Source: Bacteroidales bacterium
GTDB lineage: Bacteria; Bacteroidota; Bacteroidia; Bacteroidales; WCHB1-69
Assembly (NCBI GenBank): GCA_017962275.1
Contig: JAGCVQ010000031.1
Span: 1 to 49,860 of the forward strand
Direction of reading: 5' to 3'
Length of the DNA: 49,860 bases
A model generated the notes under the pieces. The model had not been told where the DNA came from and did no database searches. It saw only the letters and a list, made by a program, of their open reading frames with translations. Of the stretch, positions 1,254 through 12,084 are shown piece after piece. The translations under genes were made by a program, and so were the position numbers. How positions within the stretch are numbered: position 1 is the stretch's first letter; each line of letters starts with the position of its first letter.

Positions 1254-1526
1254 ATGGACAACAACGAACCCCCTATCGAAACCTTTCACATCGGGCAAGC
1301 CATCAAGGCGGAGCTTGCGCGGCAAGGGCGGAGCATCACATGGTTGGCGCATCAGATCGGCTGCACCCGCGAAAATCTCTACAAAATCATGCGCCGCGAG
1401 TGGATCTACACCGATGTCCTCTTCAAAATATGCGATGCCCTCGATCACGACTTCTTCAAGGCCTGCTCCGACTGGCGCAAATCCCCATCCTATCCAAAAA
1501 CTGTGAATCAAACGGACAATTCGTAG
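1254..1526 (+). CDS. Small Cro/C1-type (XRE) helix-turn-helix protein
   Basis: This 90-aa protein has one HTH domain at about residues 12-66. IGQAIKAELARQGRSITWLA is the first part, followed by HQIGCTRENLYKIMRR as the recognition helix region and a final helix with FKICDALDHDFF. This is the layout of stand-alone XRE proteins common in Bacteroidales, with no second domain. It probably binds DNA as a small repressor. It is the nearest regulator upstream of the radical SAM/peptide locus, 89 bp away and on the same strand, so control of that locus is possible but only inferred. The C-terminal tail is short and polar. The overlapping opposite-strand frame has no recognisable protein. Confidence 0.75.
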   Translation: MDNNEPPIETFHIGQAIKAELARQGRSITWLAHQIGCTRENLYKIMRREWIYTDVLFKICDALDHDFFKACSDWRKSPSYPKTVNQTDNS

Positions 1527-1594
1527 CGACGATTTTTCCAATAGATTGTAACGGATAGTTACGGGGAGGAATGGTTTGTAGGTGGGGGAAAGTG

Positions 1595-1602
1595 TAATTT
1601 TG
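1595..1602 (+). promoter_or_regulatory. -7 promoter element TAATTTTG upstream of the radical SAM gene
   Basis: The sequence matches the Bacteroidetes -7 consensus TAnnTTTG. A TTTG at 1575-1578 could act as the -33 element, but the 16-base spacing is shorter than the usual 19-21. It lies 13-20 bases before the two possible ATG starts (1616, 1622), so the leader would be very short. Confidence 0.5.
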
Positions 1603-1615
1603 CAATGACTAAAAA

Positions 1616-2947
1616 ATGTTTATGAAGGTCGAGAAACGATATTTGTCACTTCCTTTGACGGCGCAGCTTGAAATCACCGATTTCTGCAATCATCGGTGTG
1701 TTCATTGCTACAATCTTGACTCAGCGGTTGAGAACCGTCCAGTGCGAAAAGTCAGTGATGAAACCGTGTTGGCCTGTGCGCAAAAATTGATTGACAACCA
1801 AATTTTCAGCGTCATTGTCACGGGTGGCGAACCTTTGATAAAAAAAGAACTCACCAAAAAGGTCATCCATCTGCTGAAAGAGAACAAAACTCGAGTGTCT
1901 CTCAACTCAAATCTCACTCTTGCGGATGATGATTTCATCCATTTCCTGAAAGAGCAAAAAATTGGTGTGTTAACTTCCTGCCCATCTGGCGATACCGATT
2001 CGTTTTCAAGACTCACTGGTACAAACAATTATCCCCTGTTTGAGGCTACTATCAAAAAAATGGTTTCAGTTGGTGTCCGTTTTACGGTGAATATGGTCGT
2101 TACTAAAGAAAACCTTCATGAGATTCGAGCGACTGCTGAAAAGATGAAAAAGTTGGGTTGTAAATCTTTTGCGGCAACGCCTATGGGGTTGAACGTGGAA
2201 TACCCTCGTCTTGACCTATTATTGACTGTAGAGGAAGTATGTAATGTTATTGCAGACTTGCTATGGATAGAGAAGCATTTGAAAATGAAGGTGGATATAT
2301 TGGAAGCCTTGCCAAAATGTGTGTTCCCCGAAAGTGTGCTGAAAGGAAAACATGCTTTTCTGAACAGAAAATGCCAAGCGGGGCGAACGGTGATTGCGGT
2401 CTCCTGCAATGGTGATGTGCGTCCCTGCGCCCATAACCCTTACTCCTATGGCAACCTTTTGGAAGAAGAGTTACGAGACATCTGGCAAAAGATGAAAGAC
2501 TGGAGATCTCTTCAATACATTCCTGATGAATGCACTGATTGTACATGGCTCAATCGCTGCAACGGAGGCTGTCGCACCAGTGCCAAAGTGTATTGTGGCG
2601 ATTGGAACAAACAAGACATGTGGTGTACAGGAAAGCTTACGACCTCCCCTCCAAAAGACGAACCAGAATTTGACTTGAAACCTGATACACGGCTACAGTT
2701 TTCAACAGTAATCAGAGCAAGGAAAGAAGATGAAGACGCGTATGTGGTTTACAATACCGATGATGATGTGTTCTTTATGATTAATCAAGCGTATTACGAC
2801 TTTCTCATGGACTTGAAGGAAGAAGGTGCTTTCACTTTTGAAACGTTATGCCACACAAACCATCTTGCGACCGATAACCCACAGATTCAAGACATTATCA
2901 CATTTCTGATAAAAAAGAAAGTCCTCAAAATAATTGACAAAAACTAA
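1616..2947 (+). CDS. Radical SAM/SPASM peptide maturase with C-terminal PqqD-like recognition domain
   Basis: This 443-aa enzyme has the radical SAM cluster motif C24-x3-C28-x2-C31 (CNHRCVHC) and the GGEP motif at 70-73. The SPASM region has Cys253, 264, 271, 306, 309, 315, 319, 327 and 337 and should hold auxiliary Fe-S clusters. Residues 358-440, with YVVYNTDDDVFFMINQAYYD, look like a PqqD/RiPP recognition element that would bind a precursor leader. The family (PqqE, AlbA, PapB, SCIFF maturases) forms C-S or C-C crosslinks in ribosomal peptides. Two Cys-rich mini-genes follow, the first only 5 bases after this stop, so they are very likely the substrates. A fused recognition domain explains why no separate PqqD gene is present. 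The start could also be the ATG at 1622. Confident in class; the chemistry is inferred. Confidence 0.9.
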   Translation: MFMKVEKRYLSLPLTAQLEITDFCNHRCVHCYNLDSAVENRPVRKVSDETVLACAQKLIDNQIFSVIVTGGEPLIKKELTKKVIHLLKENKTRVSLNSNLTLADDDFIHFLKEQKIGVLTSCPSGDTDSFSRLTGTNNYPLFEATIKKMVSVGVRFTVNMVVTKENLHEIRATAEKMKKLGCKSFAATPMGLNVEYPRLDLLLTVEEVCNVIADLLWIEKHLKMKVDILEALPKCVFPESVLKGKHAFLNRKCQAGRTVIAVSCNGDVRPCAHNPYSYGNLLEEELRDIWQKMKDWRSLQYIPDECTDCTWLNRCNGGCRTSAKVYCGDWNKQDMWCTGKLTTSPPKDEPEFDLKPDTRLQFSTVIRARKEDEDAYVVYNTDDDVFFMINQAYYDFLMDLKEEGAFTFETLCHTNHLATDNPQIQDIITFLIKKKVLKIIDKN

Positions 2948-2952
2948 AACTA

Positions 2953-3144
2953 ATGAATATGAACAAGAAAACGACACCCCAAGAAATGATTGCATACGAT
3001 TTCAGCAACCTTGATTTGCCCCAGAATGGGAAAGACAATTGCTATAGTTGTGACAATTGCAACACCTGCGACGGAAATCCTGATGGCACTATGTGTAACA
3101 ATTGCAATAATTGTGATACTTGTGAACATTGTGACAACGACTAA
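2953..3144 (+). CDS. Candidate RiPP precursor peptide A, 63 aa, nine cysteines
   Basis: The peptide has a cysteine-free leader (residues 1-29) and a core with Cys at 30, 33, 36, 39, 48, 51, 54, 57 and 60, a strict every-third-residue pattern split by the spacer DGNPDGTM. Other core residues are almost all Asn, Asp, Thr or Ser. Cys30, 36, 51 and 57 have Asp four residues later and Cys54 has Glu, the C-x3-D/E spacing used by PapB-type thioether maturases. The leader end YDFSNLDLPQNGKDNC closely matches the second peptide. It follows the radical SAM gene by 5 bases, so co-transcription and modification by that enzyme are likely. An unmodified metal-binding peptide is the main alternative, but the shared leader argues against it. 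No protease or exporter is adjacent. Confidence 0.8.
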   Translation: MNMNKKTTPQEMIAYDFSNLDLPQNGKDNCYSCDNCNTCDGNPDGTMCNNCNNCDTCEHCDND

Positions 3145-3159
3145 TCAAGCATTAATATT

Positions 3160-3303
3160 ATGGAATACGATTTCGAGAAAATGCAAGTCTTTGAATTTGG
3201 CAACATAGACTTACAAGAAAACAGTAAAAGAAACTGCTTTGAAAGTAGTCCCTGCAATTGTGATTCCTGTGACATGTGTGATTCCTGTGACCACGGTTGG
3301 TAA
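3160..3303 (+). CDS. Candidate RiPP precursor peptide B, 47 aa, six cysteines
   Basis: This very short gene runs from ATG 3160 to TAA 3301-3303, beginning 15 bases after precursor A. It encodes 47 residues: a 25-residue leader without cysteine, then Cys at 26, 32, 34, 37, 40 and 43, ending CDHGW. The leader-core junction FEFGNIDLQENSKRNC aligns without gaps with YDFSNLDLPQNGKDNC of precursor A, whereas the cores differ. Cys34, 37 and 40 each have Asp four residues later. Conservation of the leader with divergence of the core is what two substrates of one maturase should look like. A longer frame overlaps it (3239-3304, GTG- or TTG-type starts), but that belongs to the upstream extension of the next gene and is not coding there. 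Confidence 0.75.
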   Translation: MEYDFEKMQVFEFGNIDLQENSKRNCFESSPCNCDSCDMCDSCDHGW

Positions 3304-3304
3304 T

Positions 3305-3889
3305 ATGAGTATTATGAGTTATATATTCGCAGCATTAACAGCCTTGGCTACAGCCATCACGGCTGTAGTAGCCTACTTTGCATTGAAAAACGAAAAAGGA
3401 AGCAGGCAATATAGTGTGTTTTCAGATTCAGTACGTGTAGTTTTGGATGGCATCAAGAATTCTGAGAGCCAAGATTATATTCTTTCTAACAAATACTATC
3501 AAGACATAGAAACAATACAGCGCTATTTGGGAGTAGGAAGTAAAGAGAAAATCAGTCTTGTGGGTTTTAAAGAAATAGTCATAAATGATCGTATAAAAGA
3601 CGGCCTTACTATTTCAGAAGAAGAGAAAAAAGAGACAAAAGAGAGGCTGCGCAAATCCTACAAGAAAATTGAATATTTCTGTGAAAGAATGGAATACCTG
3701 GGAATCCTTTCCGAAGATAAATCTATTCGCCCACTTATCCTAGACTATTATGGGCAAACGATTATTAAATCATACGAAAGGCTATATCATCTTATAATAA
3801 AGACCAGAGAAGATCGAAACGCAGAGGATTTATATGTGCATTACACCCGATTGTACAACTATGCAATAGAAAGTAAAAAACACAAATAA
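3305..3889 (+). CDS. Membrane-anchored protein of unknown function (DUF4760-like)
   Basis: The ATG at 3305 is chosen because the open frame upstream overlaps precursor B in another frame; ATG 3314 is also possible. The 194-aa product starts with one membrane helix, about residues 4-25 (SYIFAALTALATAITAVVAY). A charged, mostly helical cytoplasmic part of about 165 residues follows, with ERLRKSYKKIEYFCERMEYL and a final helix YVHYTRLYNYAIES. The pattern of one TM followed by helices resembles DUF4760 proteins, but I do not recognise a catalytic motif. It begins one base after the stop of precursor B, so it is almost certainly co-transcribed with the peptide genes. A role in immunity, sensing or export of the peptide is possible, but this is only inferred from position. 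Confidence 0.6.
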   Translation: MSIMSYIFAALTALATAITAVVAYFALKNEKGSRQYSVFSDSVRVVLDGIKNSESQDYILSNKYYQDIETIQRYLGVGSKEKISLVGFKEIVINDRIKDGLTISEEEKKETKERLRKSYKKIEYFCERMEYLGILSEDKSIRPLILDYYGQTIIKSYERLYHLIIKTREDRNAEDLYVHYTRLYNYAIESKKHK

Positions 3890-3924: not shown

Positions 3925-4353
3925 ATGAAAAAAACAACAAAATTCTTCATTACAGTCCTGTTATTAGGTATATATTCTCTCGGTTACAGTCAAGATGTAA
4001 AAGTGAACATCAACAACCAAGATGCAACCGCAAAAGACGACTGTCCCTATCGCATTAACGGCATTTGCGCTACTGAAGACATTGGCGGAGTGAATGTGGA
4101 TTTTATCCAAGAAGGTGATCGTTGGCCATATAGTTTTTATATTGTTCTAACCAATTATAACGGTTTTCCTGTTAATGTGTTATGGCAAATTGAATACACT
4201 GGAGACTACCAAGCGTGTGATTATTATAACAATAACATTAAAACAGGAAATGTGGTAATAGGAGCAACAGGAGAAAAAAAGATATCTTTAGATAGTGACT
4301 GTTATCTACAATGGACTCTTAAAGGATTAATTGTCCGTAAATTGGCTCAATAA
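3925..4353 (+). CDS. Small secreted protein of unknown function
   Basis: This 142-aa protein has a clear signal peptide, MKKTTKFFITVLLLGIYSLG with cleavage likely after YSQ. The mature part of about 119 residues has cysteines near positions 40, 48, 98 and 126 that could form two disulfides. It is rich in aromatic residues and predicted beta strands (WPYSFYIVLTNYNGFPVNVL). I do not recognise a family. It lies 35 bases after the membrane protein and 13 bases before the next secreted protein on the same strand, suggesting one transcription unit extending from the peptide locus. The AT-rich base composition matches the locus rather than the core genes. Confidence 0.6.
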   Translation: MKKTTKFFITVLLLGIYSLGYSQDVKVNINNQDATAKDDCPYRINGICATEDIGGVNVDFIQEGDRWPYSFYIVLTNYNGFPVNVLWQIEYTGDYQACDYYNNNIKTGNVVIGATGEKKISLDSDCYLQWTLKGLIVRKLAQ

Positions 4354-4366
4354 TCAGATTATTATA

Positions 4367-5200
4367 ATGAAAAAAGTCATTTGTAGTTGCATTCTGTTGG
4401 CATTTCTTGCTTCTCTAAATGCACAATCAACAATAGATCAATCAACCTACTATCAAAAATATCGGGTACAAGGGCGGTTTCTGACAAAGCCTCTCCCCGC
4501 CCGCACAGCCAAATCATTATCAGCTCCCATACAAATCAACGGTTCTCTATGGGTTTATCCAATGGATTTGGGATACTTCGCGTCTCATCCAAATGACTAT
4601 ATTGCGCAAATTAATGCACAAAAGAAATATGGCAGAGACGACTGGCGTATTCCTACCTCTTCGGAATTAATGACTATGGAAGACAATGGCAATACAATAG
4701 GATTAGGTAATGATATTTATATGTGTACAGCCCATGCCAACGGACAATTGCGGCTTGTTGCAACGAAAGGAGAATACAATAATGTAGCCCATATTGGCAA
4801 TGCTTACTGGGCAAAATCAAATTTCGGTGCCCAAACAGAGTCTGCAGCAGGAAGACCTGTGACTTACCAAGAAGCCTTAAACAATGCCCCTGCCGGTTAT
4901 AGACTGCCTACCTATGAAGAGGCATTGTCGTTAATTCACAGTGGAGCAGTTCGATTTGGTAATCTTACATCAGGGCAGTCTTTATTTCTTCCTTTTACAG
5001 AATCCAAGACCGTAGATTGGTCTACGAGCAGCTATTATCATCAATGGGGCGAATATTGGATACAAGGTGGAAAGACTTTATATTTTGGATATTATGTTAA
5101 AGAATATGGATTCAACCAGTCTGAAAGGACAAACGAACAACCACAAATACAATCACCTTCATCAACACAGTGTTATGTAAGATATGTGTTAGATAAATAA
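4367..5200 (+). CDS. Secreted protein with DUF1566/Fib_succ_major-like domain
   Basis: ATG 4367 is chosen over upstream starts because it begins a signal peptide (MKKVICSCILLAFLASLNAQ); the frame extension to 4331 lies inside the previous gene. The mature 257-residue protein contains YGRDDWRIPTSSELMTMEDN and later GYRLPTYEEALSL. The WRxPTxxEL pattern is typical of DUF1566 and Fibrobacter-type paralogous domains, which are related to the formylglycine-generating-enzyme/C-lectin fold. These proteins are exported and often act at the surface; no enzyme activity is known. There is no type IX sorting domain at its end. It is last in the apparent unit that starts with the radical SAM gene. Confidence 0.65.
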   Translation: MKKVICSCILLAFLASLNAQSTIDQSTYYQKYRVQGRFLTKPLPARTAKSLSAPIQINGSLWVYPMDLGYFASHPNDYIAQINAQKKYGRDDWRIPTSSELMTMEDNGNTIGLGNDIYMCTAHANGQLRLVATKGEYNNVAHIGNAYWAKSNFGAQTESAAGRPVTYQEALNNAPAGYRLPTYEEALSLIHSGAVRFGNLTSGQSLFLPFTESKTVDWSTSSYYHQWGEYWIQGGKTLYFGYYVKEYGFNQSERTNEQPQIQSPSSTQCYVRYVLDK

Positions 5201-5221: not shown

Positions 5222-5335
5222 ATGCAGGAATTTGAAAACACTATGTCCAAGCAAATCACCACTGAATACATCCAAATCCAAGTCGCGACCGTCAGCACCG
5301 GCGAGATCGAGGGCGATGTGACGGAGAATTGGTAA
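5222..5335 (+). CDS. Possible 37-aa small protein or gene remnant
   Basis: ATG 5222 opens a 37-codon frame ending TAA 5333-5335, encoding MQEFENTMSKQITTEYIQIQ followed by VATVSTGEIEGDVTENW. Its base composition changes to GC-richer in the second half. It has no recognisable domain. It could be the end of a degraded gene, since no other reading frame fills 5201-5907. Confidence 0.25.
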   Translation: MQEFENTMSKQITTEYIQIQVATVSTGEIEGDVTENW

Positions 5336-5907: not shown

Positions 5908-7116
5908 TCATTTCTCCCGCTTGTAATACACAGTACTTTCGCCCACTTTCAGCTCCATCTTGTCGCGCGATGCATCAAGCCGGGCATGCCATGCTCTCCG
6001 GGCACCGCCCTCCTTGATATTCTTCTTAGAGGCTGATAGATACTTTTCCTTATAATTCTGAACCCAACTGTCCAACATCTCTTGTTTTTCCGGCTGGACG
6101 GTCATCTTGCTGGCATCCACTTCAAGATCAACGCTGTCAGGGATTGTAATCAACGTGTCCCCTTCCAATTCCCATGTTCCGATTTCTTTATAGATCGAAG
6201 TCAGCTTTCCTTGTGAGAAATTGATGTTCACCGGTGATGTAAGAACGTACACATACGAATAAGTGTGGTCCTTTCGGAATTCAAACCGATTCGATTCGTC
6301 CATTGGCGATGAGCTCCATGTTCCTGTCAGATTCTTTTCTCTCACGGCGATGCCGTTTGTGTTGATGTTGTTCACATAGTCTTCCAGATCTTCATCGGTG
6401 ATGCTCATCAGAAATTTGTTCTCGTCGTTCACCTGAATCCAGTATTTTATCAAACCAGCAATAGTACCTAACTTCCTGGGTGTACAGTCAATATAATATT
6501 TCACATGCTCATCCTCCAATTTATCCTTCAATAGTTTCCGCATTTTTGCACAGTATTGATCCTTAACTTCTTCCAGACCCAAGTTGCTGTCGCCAATATT
6601 CAGCTCTTCATACACTTTTGTAGATACCGGTCTTTGCCAATAGTCTGCTTTGTTATACTGGTCCTGGAACGTCTGGCGGTAATAATAACAAGACTGCACA
6701 TTGTCTATAAACTTCATGCATCCTAAGTTTTGCCATGTATCAGGGCTGCTATGGAAGATTTTCTCCTTTGAATTATCGAAACGGAATTCATCTCCATCAC
6801 CCACAATGAATGAAAGTGCCAGATTCAGAGTGTCATTCGGCACGGAATCCAACTGGTCGAGATGTTCTCGGACATACACCATCGCATTGTACTCCGTTTC
6901 CATACCCTCCTTCAAGGTTTTCAAAGTGTTGATCGATTCATCAATGTCATGAATCACCATGATGGCCATCAGCCGCTGCGCCTCCTCCTTTTTGCGGTTG
7001 TCCATCCAGCTGCTGACGGCAAAGGTCAAACCCACGCCGATGGCGGTTCCGATGATGCTGATAAGAAGCTGCATCCACAAGGAAGCTCTCGATTTATTTT
7101 TCATTTCCATATCCAT
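5908..7116 (-). CDS. Single-pass membrane protein with C-terminal lipocalin-like domain, unknown function
   Basis: The 402-aa product has one N-terminal membrane helix at about residues 13-35 (LWMQLLISIIGTAIGVGLTF). A long helical region of about 230 residues follows. Near residues 275-400 comes a beta-rich segment with LTGTWSSSPMDESNRFEF and IGTWELEGDTLITI, which resembles lipocalin-like domains that score a fit between background and signal. It starts 5 bases after the stop of the patatin gene, so the two are one transcript. Tight pairing with a phospholipase suggests a partner or regulator of that enzyme at the membrane, but this is inferred only from position. Three in-frame ATGs (7116, 7110, 7104) could serve as start. 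Confidence 0.6.
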   Translation of the reverse strand: MDMEMKNKSRASLWMQLLISIIGTAIGVGLTFAVSSWMDNRKKEEAQRLMAIMVIHDIDESINTLKTLKEGMETEYNAMVYVREHLDQLDSVPNDTLNLALSFIVGDGDEFRFDNSKEKIFHSSPDTWQNLGCMKFIDNVQSCYYYRQTFQDQYNKADYWQRPVSTKVYEELNIGDSNLGLEEVKDQYCAKMRKLLKDKLEDEHVKYYIDCTPRKLGTIAGLIKYWIQVNDENKFLMSITDEDLEDYVNNINTNGIAVREKNLTGTWSSSPMDESNRFEFRKDHTYSYVYVLTSPVNINFSQGKLTSIYKEIGTWELEGDTLITIPDSVDLEVDASKMTVQPEKQEMLDSWVQNYKEKYLSASKKNIKEGGARRAWHARLDASRDKMELKVGESTVYYKREK

Positions 7117-7121
7117 CGTCT

Positions 7122-8150
7122 CTATTTATTCGCTTTTTCCTCGTCGTTGTTATACCACTTCAGGTATTCTTCGGTGTACTGCCGGCCGGATTCCACCAAC
7201 TTCTGCTTTTTCGAGTCGGAAATGCCGAAATCGATGGCACGGACACCCAGCGTGTCGATATAAACCGTGCGCTGCCAGTCGTCGCTATGCAGGTGGACAT
7301 TGTCCTGGAAGTCGATGAGCGTGGTCACCAATGCCTTGGTATAGGTGAAGAAACTGCCGATCTCGTTGCGGACCGTGGCCTTGTGGGAGAGATACATCGA
7401 AATGTCTTCCTTGGCATCTAAACGGAAGCCCAACGTCTCCCGATTGTAAATGTACGGGTTGTCTCCGATTTTATCTTTCATGCTCTTTTTCGCATTGAAC
7501 TTATCATAGTACTCGGTGCGGCGGATGTTATTCATCTTGTCATCCACAAAGTTCTGCCTGTCGAAGGTCTTGATAGAATAGTTGTCCAACAACCCGCCGT
7601 CCACTAAGACATGATCCTTGTTTTCCCCACCCTTCATGGAAGCGAAGAAGAGCGGGATGGACATGGAAATGCGGGCGGCATCAGCCACCACGACATCCGG
7701 CGTGTCATCTGCATTGAAGACCACGGAGGTGCCTGTGGACAAATCGGCGCCCACCAGATAGATGTCTCTGTATTTATGGGTGGCGGCAAGTTTCCGGAAC
7801 GTTATCTCGCCATTTCCGGTTTTCTTTTTAATATATTCGACCATCTTGTCGCGGAAATAGTCGCCTTTGTACCAACCATACTCATCCAAAAGACGCTTCG
7901 TGTCGCGCACAATGCCGAACGAACTGTCCATGAACTTCTTGAAATTCAGGTCCCAAAGGATTTCCTTCATCTCCTCGGCAGTGTAACGCAACCCCACCAA
8001 GACCGCTATCATGGCACCGGCTGAAGTGCCCGCCACCCGCTTGACATTCTGCAAGATACCTTCTCTTTCGAGCACTTCGAGCGCCCCCACGTATGCGATG
8101 CCCTTCACACCACCGCCCTCAAAAACCAGATTGTTGAAATGATACGCCAT
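7122..8150 (-). CDS. Patatin-like phospholipase
   Basis: The 342-aa protein shows the complete patatin signature. The oxyanion-hole loop is EGGGVKGIAYVGAL near residues 11-24, the nucleophile motif is GTSAGA with Ser43, and the dyad aspartate is Asp184 in VDGGLLDN. Patatins are Ser-Asp lipid acyl hydrolases that release fatty acids from membrane phospholipids. There is no signal peptide, so it is probably cytoplasmic and may act on the inner membrane. It heads a two-gene unit with the membrane protein that follows. Some bacterial patatins are effectors in anti-phage systems, but no nucleotide cyclase or other signalling partner is nearby, so a housekeeping lipid role is equally possible. Confidence 0.88.
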   Translation of the reverse strand: MAYHFNNLVFEGGGVKGIAYVGALEVLEREGILQNVKRVAGTSAGAMIAVLVGLRYTAEEMKEILWDLNFKKFMDSSFGIVRDTKRLLDEYGWYKGDYFRDKMVEYIKKKTGNGEITFRKLAATHKYRDIYLVGADLSTGTSVVFNADDTPDVVVADAARISMSIPLFFASMKGGENKDHVLVDGGLLDNYSIKTFDRQNFVDDKMNNIRRTEYYDKFNAKKSMKDKIGDNPYIYNRETLGFRLDAKEDISMYLSHKATVRNEIGSFFTYTKALVTTLIDFQDNVHLHSDDWQRTVYIDTLGVRAIDFGISDSKKQKLVESGRQYTEEYLKWYNNDEEKANK

Positions 8151-10554: not shown

Positions 10555-12084
10555 TCAATTATCCATTATTAGCGGGTTCCCCATCAAGAATTCCTGCACG
10601 TTCCGGATATCCTCGTAGAACGGGGTATCTTCGATGAAGACGGGACAGATTTCGCGCACCTGCTTGTAAATCTGTCGGGAAATCGGGGCGAGTTTGTCCG
10701 CAATCTTCAGGATGTCAACGGCTTGGGCGAAGGCGATGTACTGGATGGCCAGCACCTGCCAGGCGTTGTCGATGACACGGCGGGTGAGCAACGCGGTATT
10801 CGTTCCCATACTCACAATATCCTGATTATCATTGTTATTCGGGATGCTGTGCACGTAGTTGGGCATGGCAAGCGTCTGGCACTCGGCGGTGGTGGAGGTG
10901 GCTGTGAACTGGCACGCCTGCATCCCGTAATTCAGTCCCAACTTACCCATGTTGAGGAACGGCGGCAGGATGCCGTTGATGCGGTCGTGGAAAAGGTAGT
11001 TGAGCTGCCGTTCGGCGGTCATCACGAGGCGCACCATCGCGATCTTCACTTTGTCCTGTTCCAAAGAGATGTAGTCACCGTGGAAGTTGCCACCGTGATA
11101 GACGTTGCGGGTCTCGGGATCCACAATCGGGTTGTCGCAGGCGGAATTAACCTCCTCCTCCAACACGCGGCGACAGTTGGCCAACGTGTCGTAAATCGGT
11201 CCCAGAATCTGCGGCGTACAACGCAACGAATAGTAAGCCTGCACTTTATGCTCGAACGTTTCCTCGGTATGGTGACCATCGTAAAGCAGGTGTTCTCGCT
11301 GTTGTAGACATTGGCTGTCGCGGGCGAGCACGCGCATCCGCATGGCGATCACCTGCTGCCCTTCGTGACGGCGCACCTCGTTCAGCGGTGCGGCCATCCA
11401 ATCATCGTAGGAGCCGGCAATCTCGTTCATCATCACCGCAGCCAAGGTAGCCCAATCCAAAAGTTGCTCGGCCTGGAACTGGTTGACCATCGCCACGCCG
11501 GTCATCACACCGGTGCCGTTGGTGATGGAGAGTCCCTCGCGGATGTGAATCTTGAACGGTTCCAACCCATTCTCCTTCAGCACTTCCGCCGCAGGACGCC
11601 ATTCGCCGTGGTAGTGAACTCTCCCCTCCCCGATCATCGTCAGGGCGAGGTGCGCTAATTGCACAAGGTCGCCACTGGCCCCCACGCTGCCGTGCTGGGG
11701 AATCATCGGGAGGATGTCGCGGTTGATCATCTCCACCAACAACTTCACCAGATCGGGATGCACGCCGGAACGCGCTTGCAAGAAGGTTCCGAGGCGGGCC
11801 ACCATCGCGGCCTTCACGCAATCGTCGGGCAGCGGTTCGCCCGCGCCTGTGGAGTGACTGCGGATAATATTGTATTGTAAAGCAATGAGATGGTCATCTT
11901 CGACGCGCCATTGCGCCATCGGTCCAAAACCGGTATTGATGCCGTAGATGATCTTGTCCGCGCTGAATTCTTTCAGAAAATCGTAACATGCCGCTACCTT
12001 GTCCATCGGCAGGTCGGCAAGGTTTATCTTTTTGTCTTCGTAAACGATATTTTCGACGTCAGAGAGGGTAAAAATGGTATTCAT
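10555..12084 (-). CDS. Aromatic amino-acid ammonia-lyase (probable tyrosine ammonia-lyase, flexirubin type)
   Basis: The 509-aa MIO enzyme has the autocatalytic Ala136-Ser137-Gly138 in GSVGASGDLVQLAHLAL and the catalytic Tyr47 in IYGINTGFGPMAQ. Its sequence tracks the tyrosine ammonia-lyase of Flavobacterium johnsoniae through most of its length (for example LQYNIIRSHSTGAGEPL, YHGGNFHGDYISLE, VHSIPNNNDNQDIVSMGTN). True HutH proteins instead have ASGDLAPLAH. It should deaminate tyrosine to p-coumarate, the starter of flexirubin/aryl-polyene pigments. FabG follows and a glycosyltransferase precedes it. No hutU/hutI/ftcD gene is near, which argues against histidine catabolism. Substrate preference is inferred from similarity. 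Confidence 0.82.
   Translation of the reverse strand: MNTIFTLSDVENIVYEDKKINLADLPMDKVAACYDFLKEFSADKIIYGINTGFGPMAQWRVEDDHLIALQYNIIRSHSTGAGEPLPDDCVKAAMVARLGTFLQARSGVHPDLVKLLVEMINRDILPMIPQHGSVGASGDLVQLAHLALTMIGEGRVHYHGEWRPAAEVLKENGLEPFKIHIREGLSITNGTGVMTGVAMVNQFQAEQLLDWATLAAVMMNEIAGSYDDWMAAPLNEVRRHEGQQVIAMRMRVLARDSQCLQQREHLLYDGHHTEETFEHKVQAYYSLRCTPQILGPIYDTLANCRRVLEEEVNSACDNPIVDPETRNVYHGGNFHGDYISLEQDKVKIAMVRLVMTAERQLNYLFHDRINGILPPFLNMGKLGLNYGMQACQFTATSTTAECQTLAMPNYVHSIPNNNDNQDIVSMGTNTALLTRRVIDNAWQVLAIQYIAFAQAVDILKIADKLAPISRQIYKQVREICPVFIEDTPFYEDIRNVQEFLMGNPLIMDN

Follow-up and report, generated by a model that had tools for sequence, protein, structure and literature searches.

A radical SAM/SPASM enzyme and Cys-Asp repeat peptides form a rare, most likely RiPP-type cassette in Bacteroidales

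Results

A small gene cassette in the genome of a Bacteroidales bacterium pairs a radical SAM/SPASM enzyme with short peptides in which nearly every cysteine is followed directly by Asp or Asn. The cassette is real and is most likely a RiPP (modified ribosomal peptide) locus, and we regard the Cys-Asp repeat peptides together with their SPASM enzyme as a small new family within a known kind. It is marked by a conserved gene order, a leader shared among its peptides, co-occurrence of leader and maturase, a characteristic core grammar and purifying selection on the maturase. We refer throughout to the whole analysed stretch of 49,860 nucleotides as the window; the features discussed are as follows.

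1254 to 1526, forward strand: small HTH protein of the Cro/C1 type, 90 aa, candidate regulator (HTH_26 above cut-off)
1575 to 1602, forward strand: Bacteroidetes-type promoter-like site TTTG-N16-TAATTTTG before the maturase gene (pattern match)
1616 to 2947, forward strand: radical SAM/SPASM peptide maturase (Pfam Radical_SAM E 2.6e-21, SPASM E 2.8e-10)
2672 to 2944, forward strand: C-terminal domain of the maturase, putatively leader-binding and RRE-like (by eye and by HMM decoy scores)
2953 to 3144, forward strand: precursor A, 63 aa, 9 Cys, with leader 2953 to 3039 and core 3040 to 3141 (leader HMM E 5.2e-20, the sequence being in the model)
3160 to 3303, forward strand: precursor B, 47 aa, 6 Cys, with leader 3160 to 3234 and core 3235 to 3300 (leader HMM E 2.1e-14, the sequence being in the model)
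3305 to 3889, forward strand: DUF4760-domain protein, 194 aa, with an N-terminal membrane segment by eye (DUF4760 E 1.5e-6, computed from the longer ORF start at 3239)
3925 to 4353, forward strand: secreted-looking protein, 142 aa, with a signal-peptide-like start by eye, membership in the cassette uncertain (no family match)
4367 to 5200, forward strand: Lcl_C-domain protein, probably a passenger (Lcl_C E 2.3e-9)

Conservation and distribution of the cassette

The same order of genes was found in four genomes: the gene of a radical SAM/SPASM enzyme comes first, one or two mini-genes for Cys-rich peptides follow, and a gene whose product is alignable to the DUF4760 protein comes last. A modifying enzyme kept as a unit with an adjoining short precursor gene, which is a general criterion for a RiPP locus, was present at four of four loci. 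The other loci are L003, L004 and L005/L024 (L005 and L024 being one locus); two of them were retrieved by a scan of genome contigs and the third by whole-genome searches. Two Cys-rich peptides directly follow the enzyme in the window, in L003 and in L005, and one does in L004. Because the enzyme is followed by peptides with related leaders in three other genomes, and because the precursors use both TGT and TGC for cysteine, we consider the locus to be beyond chance. The first-pass annotation had placed the enzyme at 1616 to 2947 and the mini-genes 5 and 212 bases past its stop, and these coordinates, sizes and distances are correct. Its reading of the region as a RiPP-type locus, with a SPASM enzyme and two precursors, is supported by the shared leader, the conserved order and the co-occurrence described below.

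The cassette is rare and occurs in few Bacteroidales, and the family rests on four loci. Searches of genome sets which overlap and each of which contains the window's own genome gave a maturase for 2 of 40 genomes of the genus, 3 of 104 of the family, 3 of 393 of the order and 1 of 395 of the phylum, this last being the window's own only; for the order and the phylum, scoring was limited to a maximum of four candidates in each genome. When the order genomes were searched with a profile at a looser limit, the next matches to the maturase reached only 91-102 bits. By eye, the cassette lies near elongation factor G in L003, an epimerase in L004 and an acyl-CoA-synthetase-like protein in L005, and in the window it adjoins an Abi_2 gene (Pfam). 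Since the neighbours differ and the GC content of the operon is below that of its surroundings at each locus (0.398 vs 0.535 for the rest of the stretch in the window, 0.383 vs 0.518 in L003, 0.383 vs 0.439 in L004 and 0.432 vs 0.524 in L024), horizontal spread of the cassette is suggested.

No relatives were found in viral contigs using pattern-seeded searches, or in plasmids at E 1e-20. One phage-labelled record was rejected as a relative; it covers 70% of the enzyme with a match of 22.6%. Assignment to a defence system was also rejected, as PADLOC gave the maturase only pVip-type radical SAM similarity and the HTH protein a chance-level match (E 0.024); the four DUF4760-like proteins retrieved no PADLOC match. 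Separately, the Abi_2/AbiD-like gene in the window lies at 45-722 (Abi_2 E 3.3e-41, PADLOC AbiD E 9.6e-51), and a similar copy was seen by eye in L003 at 10971-11426, on the other side of the cassette than in the window. In literature searched by title, with most subscription journals outside the search, we found no description of the cassette, which may be described elsewhere; it is also absent from the available text, supplements aside, of a survey of Bacteroidales RiPPs (PMC10352776).

Precursor peptides and their leader

The four loci encode seven precursor peptides, and none of the seven retrieved a significant family match. Their leaders are 25-29 residues long, with the majority consensus YDFSNLxLQENSxxN followed by C-F/Y. 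Only the N and C of the N-C-F/Y border are invariant in the leader region; this border opens the core in all seven peptides, while the motif N-L/I-x-LQEN is complete in four of seven leaders, window precursor A having NLDLPQN instead. Precursor B ends in Trp, as do the two other B peptides. The leaders are not clearly more conserved than the cores: mean identity is 0.419 in the leader vs 0.409 in the core (0.30 for the core without Cys), and pooled pN is lower in the core (0.245) than in the leader (0.313), the cores being of low complexity and differing by indels.

An HMM built from the seven leaders produced six strong matches (E <= 2.1e-14) among the 104 family genomes, two in each of three genomes, and these are the same three genomes that carry the maturase. 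These six belong to the seven leaders used for the model, and no new member was added. At the level of the order, matches with E <= 0.001 were likewise confined to 3 of 393 genomes, the same three as for the maturase. Across the 104 family and 393 order genomes we found neither an orphan strong leader without a maturase nor a maturase without a leader. Single matches in five other family genomes (including L019), at E 0.016-0.041, were taken as chance by their scores. The first-pass annotation had tied its proposal to the co-occurrence of leader-like peptides with maturase homologues in other genomes; this search was run, both are in the same genomes, bar those five weak matches, and the RiPP reading withstands the test.

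These results bear on whether the small ORFs could simply be unmodified Cys-rich proteins, with the radical SAM enzyme acting on something else. Modification of the peptides is indeed something that we infer here, but four genomes keep the enzyme, the precursors and the DUF4760-like protein side by side amid differing neighbouring genes, and the strong leader and the maturase are never apart among the genomes searched. We therefore consider this explanation very unlikely.

The maturase and its C-terminal domain

The start of the maturase is probably the second ATG, at 1622, because the homologues align from MKVEKRY or MQIRKRY. Identity to the window's maturase is 83% for L003, 78% for L004 and 83% for L005/L024. 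The CX3CX2C cysteines (C23, C27 and C30) are invariant in all four homologues, as are C252, C263, C270, C305, C308, C314, C318 and C336, which we take to be the SPASM cysteine pattern. With dN of 0.10-0.17 against dS of 0.56 to saturated, the maturase is under purifying selection. Among the best 25 of 86 NCBIfam models matched (E up to 1), the window maturase scored below every cut-off; GeoRSP was at the top (97.7 of 400 bits), and GeoRSP, NirJ2, AhbD and DynA all scored 87-98 bits.

The C-terminal 91 residues of the maturase are more divergent than the enzyme as a whole, at 48, 64 and 70% identity to the window's. The first-pass annotation had described a fused PqqD-like domain here. By eye the region does resemble an RRE, but the last 89-91 residues of the four maturases matched no Pfam or NCBIfam model, a profile of the four matched no PDB sequence, and hhalign of these C-termini with 16 PqqD domains taken from related genomes yielded a probability of 4.4% (P 0.0093). 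Scored with an HMM of those 16 domains, the C-termini of the window, L003, L004 and L005 maturases outscored 365, 368, 363 and 357 of 368 ORF decoys, and 24, 2, 29 and 47 of 500 self-shuffles, respectively, matched or beat them. These decoy scores are only suggestive of a relation to PqqD, and a PqqD-like domain in the maturase C-terminus is no more than plausible. We do not read the library misses as a negative result, because RREs of other classes mostly escape the Pfam PqqD model, according to the available text by the RRE-Finder authors (PMC7470986). Three genomes of the same genus (G009, G005 and G006) encode a different radical SAM/SPASM-type protein (L038, L039 and L040) with an N-terminal PqqD domain.

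A Cys-Asp/Asn grammar in the cores

The seven cores contain 56 cysteines. Behind the first cysteine of each core stands Phe (six cores) or Tyr (one core). Of the 49 other cysteines, 36 have Asp as the next residue, 9 have Asn and 2 have Glu, 47 in all; the remaining two are one C-V and one C-C. Counted over all 56 cysteines, D/N/E at +1 occurs 47 times vs 29.4 expected, a count reached in 0 of 5000 shuffles. The distance between cysteines varies, from 3, 3, 3, 9, 3, 3, 3, 3 in the core of precursor A to 6, 2, 3, 3, 3 in that of precursor B, and the homologous cores also use C-x-C and longer spacings.

The first-pass annotation had noted Asp, Asn or Glu four residues after most cysteines and had taken this as the C-x3-D/E spacing of thioether-forming PapB-type enzymes, which would make the product a PapB-type ranthipeptide in the strict sense, with thioethers at that distance. 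The observation is literally true of the window, where D/N/E stands at +4 for 10 of 14 testable cysteines, but the +1 position is the stronger one (13 of 15). Over all seven peptides, D/N/E at +4 (26 of 52) is accounted for when the +1 residues are held in the shuffles (25.7 expected, p 0.53), and it is found for 20 of 21 cysteines where another cysteine stands at +3 and for 6 of 31 where none does. D/E alone at +4 is enriched (24 of 52 vs 15.3 expected, p 0.0006), this being a comparison with plain shuffles only, as the conditioned test was made for the D/N/E set; D/N/E at +3 and +7 is also enriched over plain shuffles. Since C-x-x-C-D runs, which are commonest in the window's two peptides, place an acid at +4, C-x3-D is best read as their by-product. 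By the conditioned test, made for D/N/E, we reject C-x3-D/E as the rule; across the seven peptides the rule is a cysteine with an immediate Asp, Asn or Glu.

On the enzyme side, strict PapB-type thioethers have in their favour a weak match to the PapB model NF047865, which at 79.3 bits is far from the 340-bit cut-off. What is published on PapB is not uniform: PapB links Cys to Asp or Glu and tolerates 0-6 residues between them, with 0 and 6 reacting incompletely, in the available part of one study (PMC9413430), while the accessible text of a review gives strict C-x3-D recognition and loss of the link on an Asp-to-Asn change (PMC8172795), so that the two disagree on spacing as far as these portions go. 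The same review text has Asn mutants of PapA as not accepted. Asn occupies 9 of the 49 acceptor positions here and is therefore a poor fit to a carboxylate-dependent, PapB-like reaction; the Asn units argue for another acceptor choice, or for another role of Asp/Asn. Altogether, we consider a strict PapB-type product quite unlikely.

SPASM enzymes such as AlbA and SkfB make links from sulfur to alpha-carbons, and thiooxazole formation by a radical SAM enzyme is also said to occur. Against the AlbA model the maturase has a weak score, 71.5 bits with a cut-off of 850, which would fit a sactipeptide-like product in which the links go to other residues and Asp/Asn serves only solubility or recognition. 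The cores, however, have few hydrophobic residues by eye, and the pairing of Cys with D/N/E would be left unexplained, making such a product highly doubtful.

Flanking genes

An HTH-like ORF lies upstream of the maturase at all four loci; it matches HTH_26 above the cut-off in the window and L003, and has HTH matches below cut-off in L004 and L024, where identity to the window's HTH protein is 37.7% and 35.1%. The site at 1575-1602 conforms to what we take to be the Bacteroidetes promoter consensus; the pattern has 4 matches in the window vs 1.28 expected, and 4 of 100 shuffles reach 4. The full site is also present in L003, and L004 and L005 have only TAnnTTTG (by eye).

Downstream, one base separates the stop of precursor B from the ATG of the DUF4760 protein at 3305, a gene that the first-pass annotation had left unmentioned. 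An alignable DUF4760-like protein directly follows the precursors at the three other loci, at 35, 40 and 29% identity to the window's. The DUF4760 E-values at these loci are 4.7e-9, 2.6e-7 and, for L003, a weak 0.04. Among 40 related genomes, a set without the three other cassette genomes, the DUF4760 model reached E <= 0.001 in one, the window's own, a threshold at which a copy as divergent as that of L003 would be missed. The DUF4760-like proteins are far more divergent than the maturases, which would fit an immunity protein or a target-specific partner; we take this protein as a candidate for either role.

CsgG/Lcl_C/Fib_succ-type proteins follow the cassette in L003 and L024. That they are part of the system is doubtful, because 6 of 30 related genomes encode relatives of the L024 copy and none of the six gave a maturase match; the window's own genome has no relative of that copy at E 1e-10. 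Also downstream, a similar C-terminal stretch (YIQIQV..STGE.EG-like, by eye) was seen at 5222-5335 in the window, where just a short ORF is left of it, at 10042-10332 in L003 and at 8276-9678 in L004. Further along the window, at 5908-8150 on the minus strand, a patatin-like phospholipase lies beside a protein without a Pfam match.

The Pfam scan covered 14 of the window's 33 non-overlapping ORFs (at least about 180 aa), including all seven between 45 and 9703. In agreement with the earlier statement that no protease or exporter is adjacent, none was seen among the operon and the neighbours scanned; such genes commonly, though not always, accompany RiPP precursors. Secretion-type genes among the scanned ORFs are limited to those of an HlyD-like adaptor and an outer-membrane efflux protein, some 35 kb distant. 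That no exporter was seen, and that each core has 6-9 cysteines, almost all of them next to a carboxylate or an amide, would suit metal-binding or redox peptides. In that case the Cys-Asp units would act as metal ligands, as in metallothioneins or metallophore RiPPs, while the enzyme would carry out some modification that is not a cross-link and many thiols would stay free to bind metal. Metal-binding RiPPs made by MNIO enzymes are reported (PMC12668002, PMC12452194), but those examples use an MNIO and not a SPASM enzyme. No metal transporter or metal regulator was recognised among the operon genes scanned, and the conserved DUF4760-like protein and the patchy distribution would be left unexplained. 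We regard metal or redox peptides as unlikely.

Discussion

We consider it moderately probable that the cassette makes a RiPP whose leader is held by the maturase and whose core cysteines are modified, likely to thioethers, with a DUF4760-like partner. The maturase would hold the shared leader of the small precursors, probably via its C-terminal RRE-like domain, and the SPASM enzyme would then modify cysteines in a core that strings together Cys-Asp/Asn units at variable distances. Chemically, a ranthipeptide-like sulfur-to-carbon thioether from Cys to Asp/Asn would be most likely, with an acceptor set and spacing that differ from those of PapB. The DUF4760-like protein would probably protect the producer from the product, or else be a membrane partner, and the product would presumably be exported. 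A bolder version, in which each Cys-Asp/Asn pair is closed into a ring by a thioether to the adjacent side chain, seems improbable to us. PapB can make a link with no residue between Cys and Asp, though incompletely (PMC9413430). If the bolder version were true, up to eight tiny rings would line up in a precursor like the rungs of a ladder, free to change in number and spacing during evolution, and the peptides would represent a new RiPP class defined by dipeptide units and not by a fixed loop length.

Whichever chemistry applies, the cassette adds a radical SAM peptide family that is small and clearly bounded. Its substrate rule is unusual, with Asp/Asn directly after nearly every Cys and free spacing, and its seven natural precursors allow one to ask whether a fixed loop or a dipeptide is what a SPASM enzyme reads. 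The cassette further connects a radical SAM peptide system with a DUF4760-like protein, a domain named in one paper of the literature searched. If cross-links form, the maturase could be a tool for making many small rings in one peptide.

Compared with known systems, the best-scoring enzyme models (GeoRSP, NirJ2, AhbD and DynA) have cut-offs of 400-500 bits, which the maturase misses by far. FibroRumin (precursor TIGR04135, maturase TIGR04136) resembles the present system in having Cys-rich peptides modified by a radical SAM enzyme, and TIGR04135 weakly matches one of the seven cassette precursors, L003_B, at E 1.5. Membership raised by that match was rejected, as the window maturase scores only 11.1 bits (E 0.19) against TIGR04136, which we do not count as a match. 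Two of the four cassette genomes do carry separate FibroRumin-like radical SAM enzymes (L046, G286:C3, 349 bits; L047, G080:C18, 345 bits), both under the cut-off of 400. Upstream of each lies a precursor rich in CxCxC, and in L047 a second radical SAM/SPASM-type protein follows. Such FibroRumin-like precursors have CxCxC runs such as CSCSCNCTCGCNCN, another leader and a TIGR04135 match below the cut-off. The HTH protein at L046:827-1081 is 44.6% identical to the window's at 1254-1526, each lying upstream of a different Cys-rich radical SAM system.

For the proposed thioethers, PapB and QhpD are precedents, both being radical SAM enzymes that form Cys-Asp thioethers in the available text of the papers cited above (PMC9413430, PMC8172795). 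In QhpD-type reactions the thioether joins Cys to the methylene carbons of Asp/Glu, according to the accessible portion of the review (PMC8172795). The substrate of QhpD is an enzyme subunit, whereas the putative substrates here are peptides of 47-63 aa. PapA/PapB (freyrasin), as far as its available descriptions go, shares with the cassette a SPASM radical SAM enzyme, a Cys/Asp-rich core, a leader and several repeats per peptide. It differs in that the peptides described here have Asp/Asn directly after Cys, variable Cys spacing and Asn among the paired residues, and in that the putative recognition domain is C-terminal.
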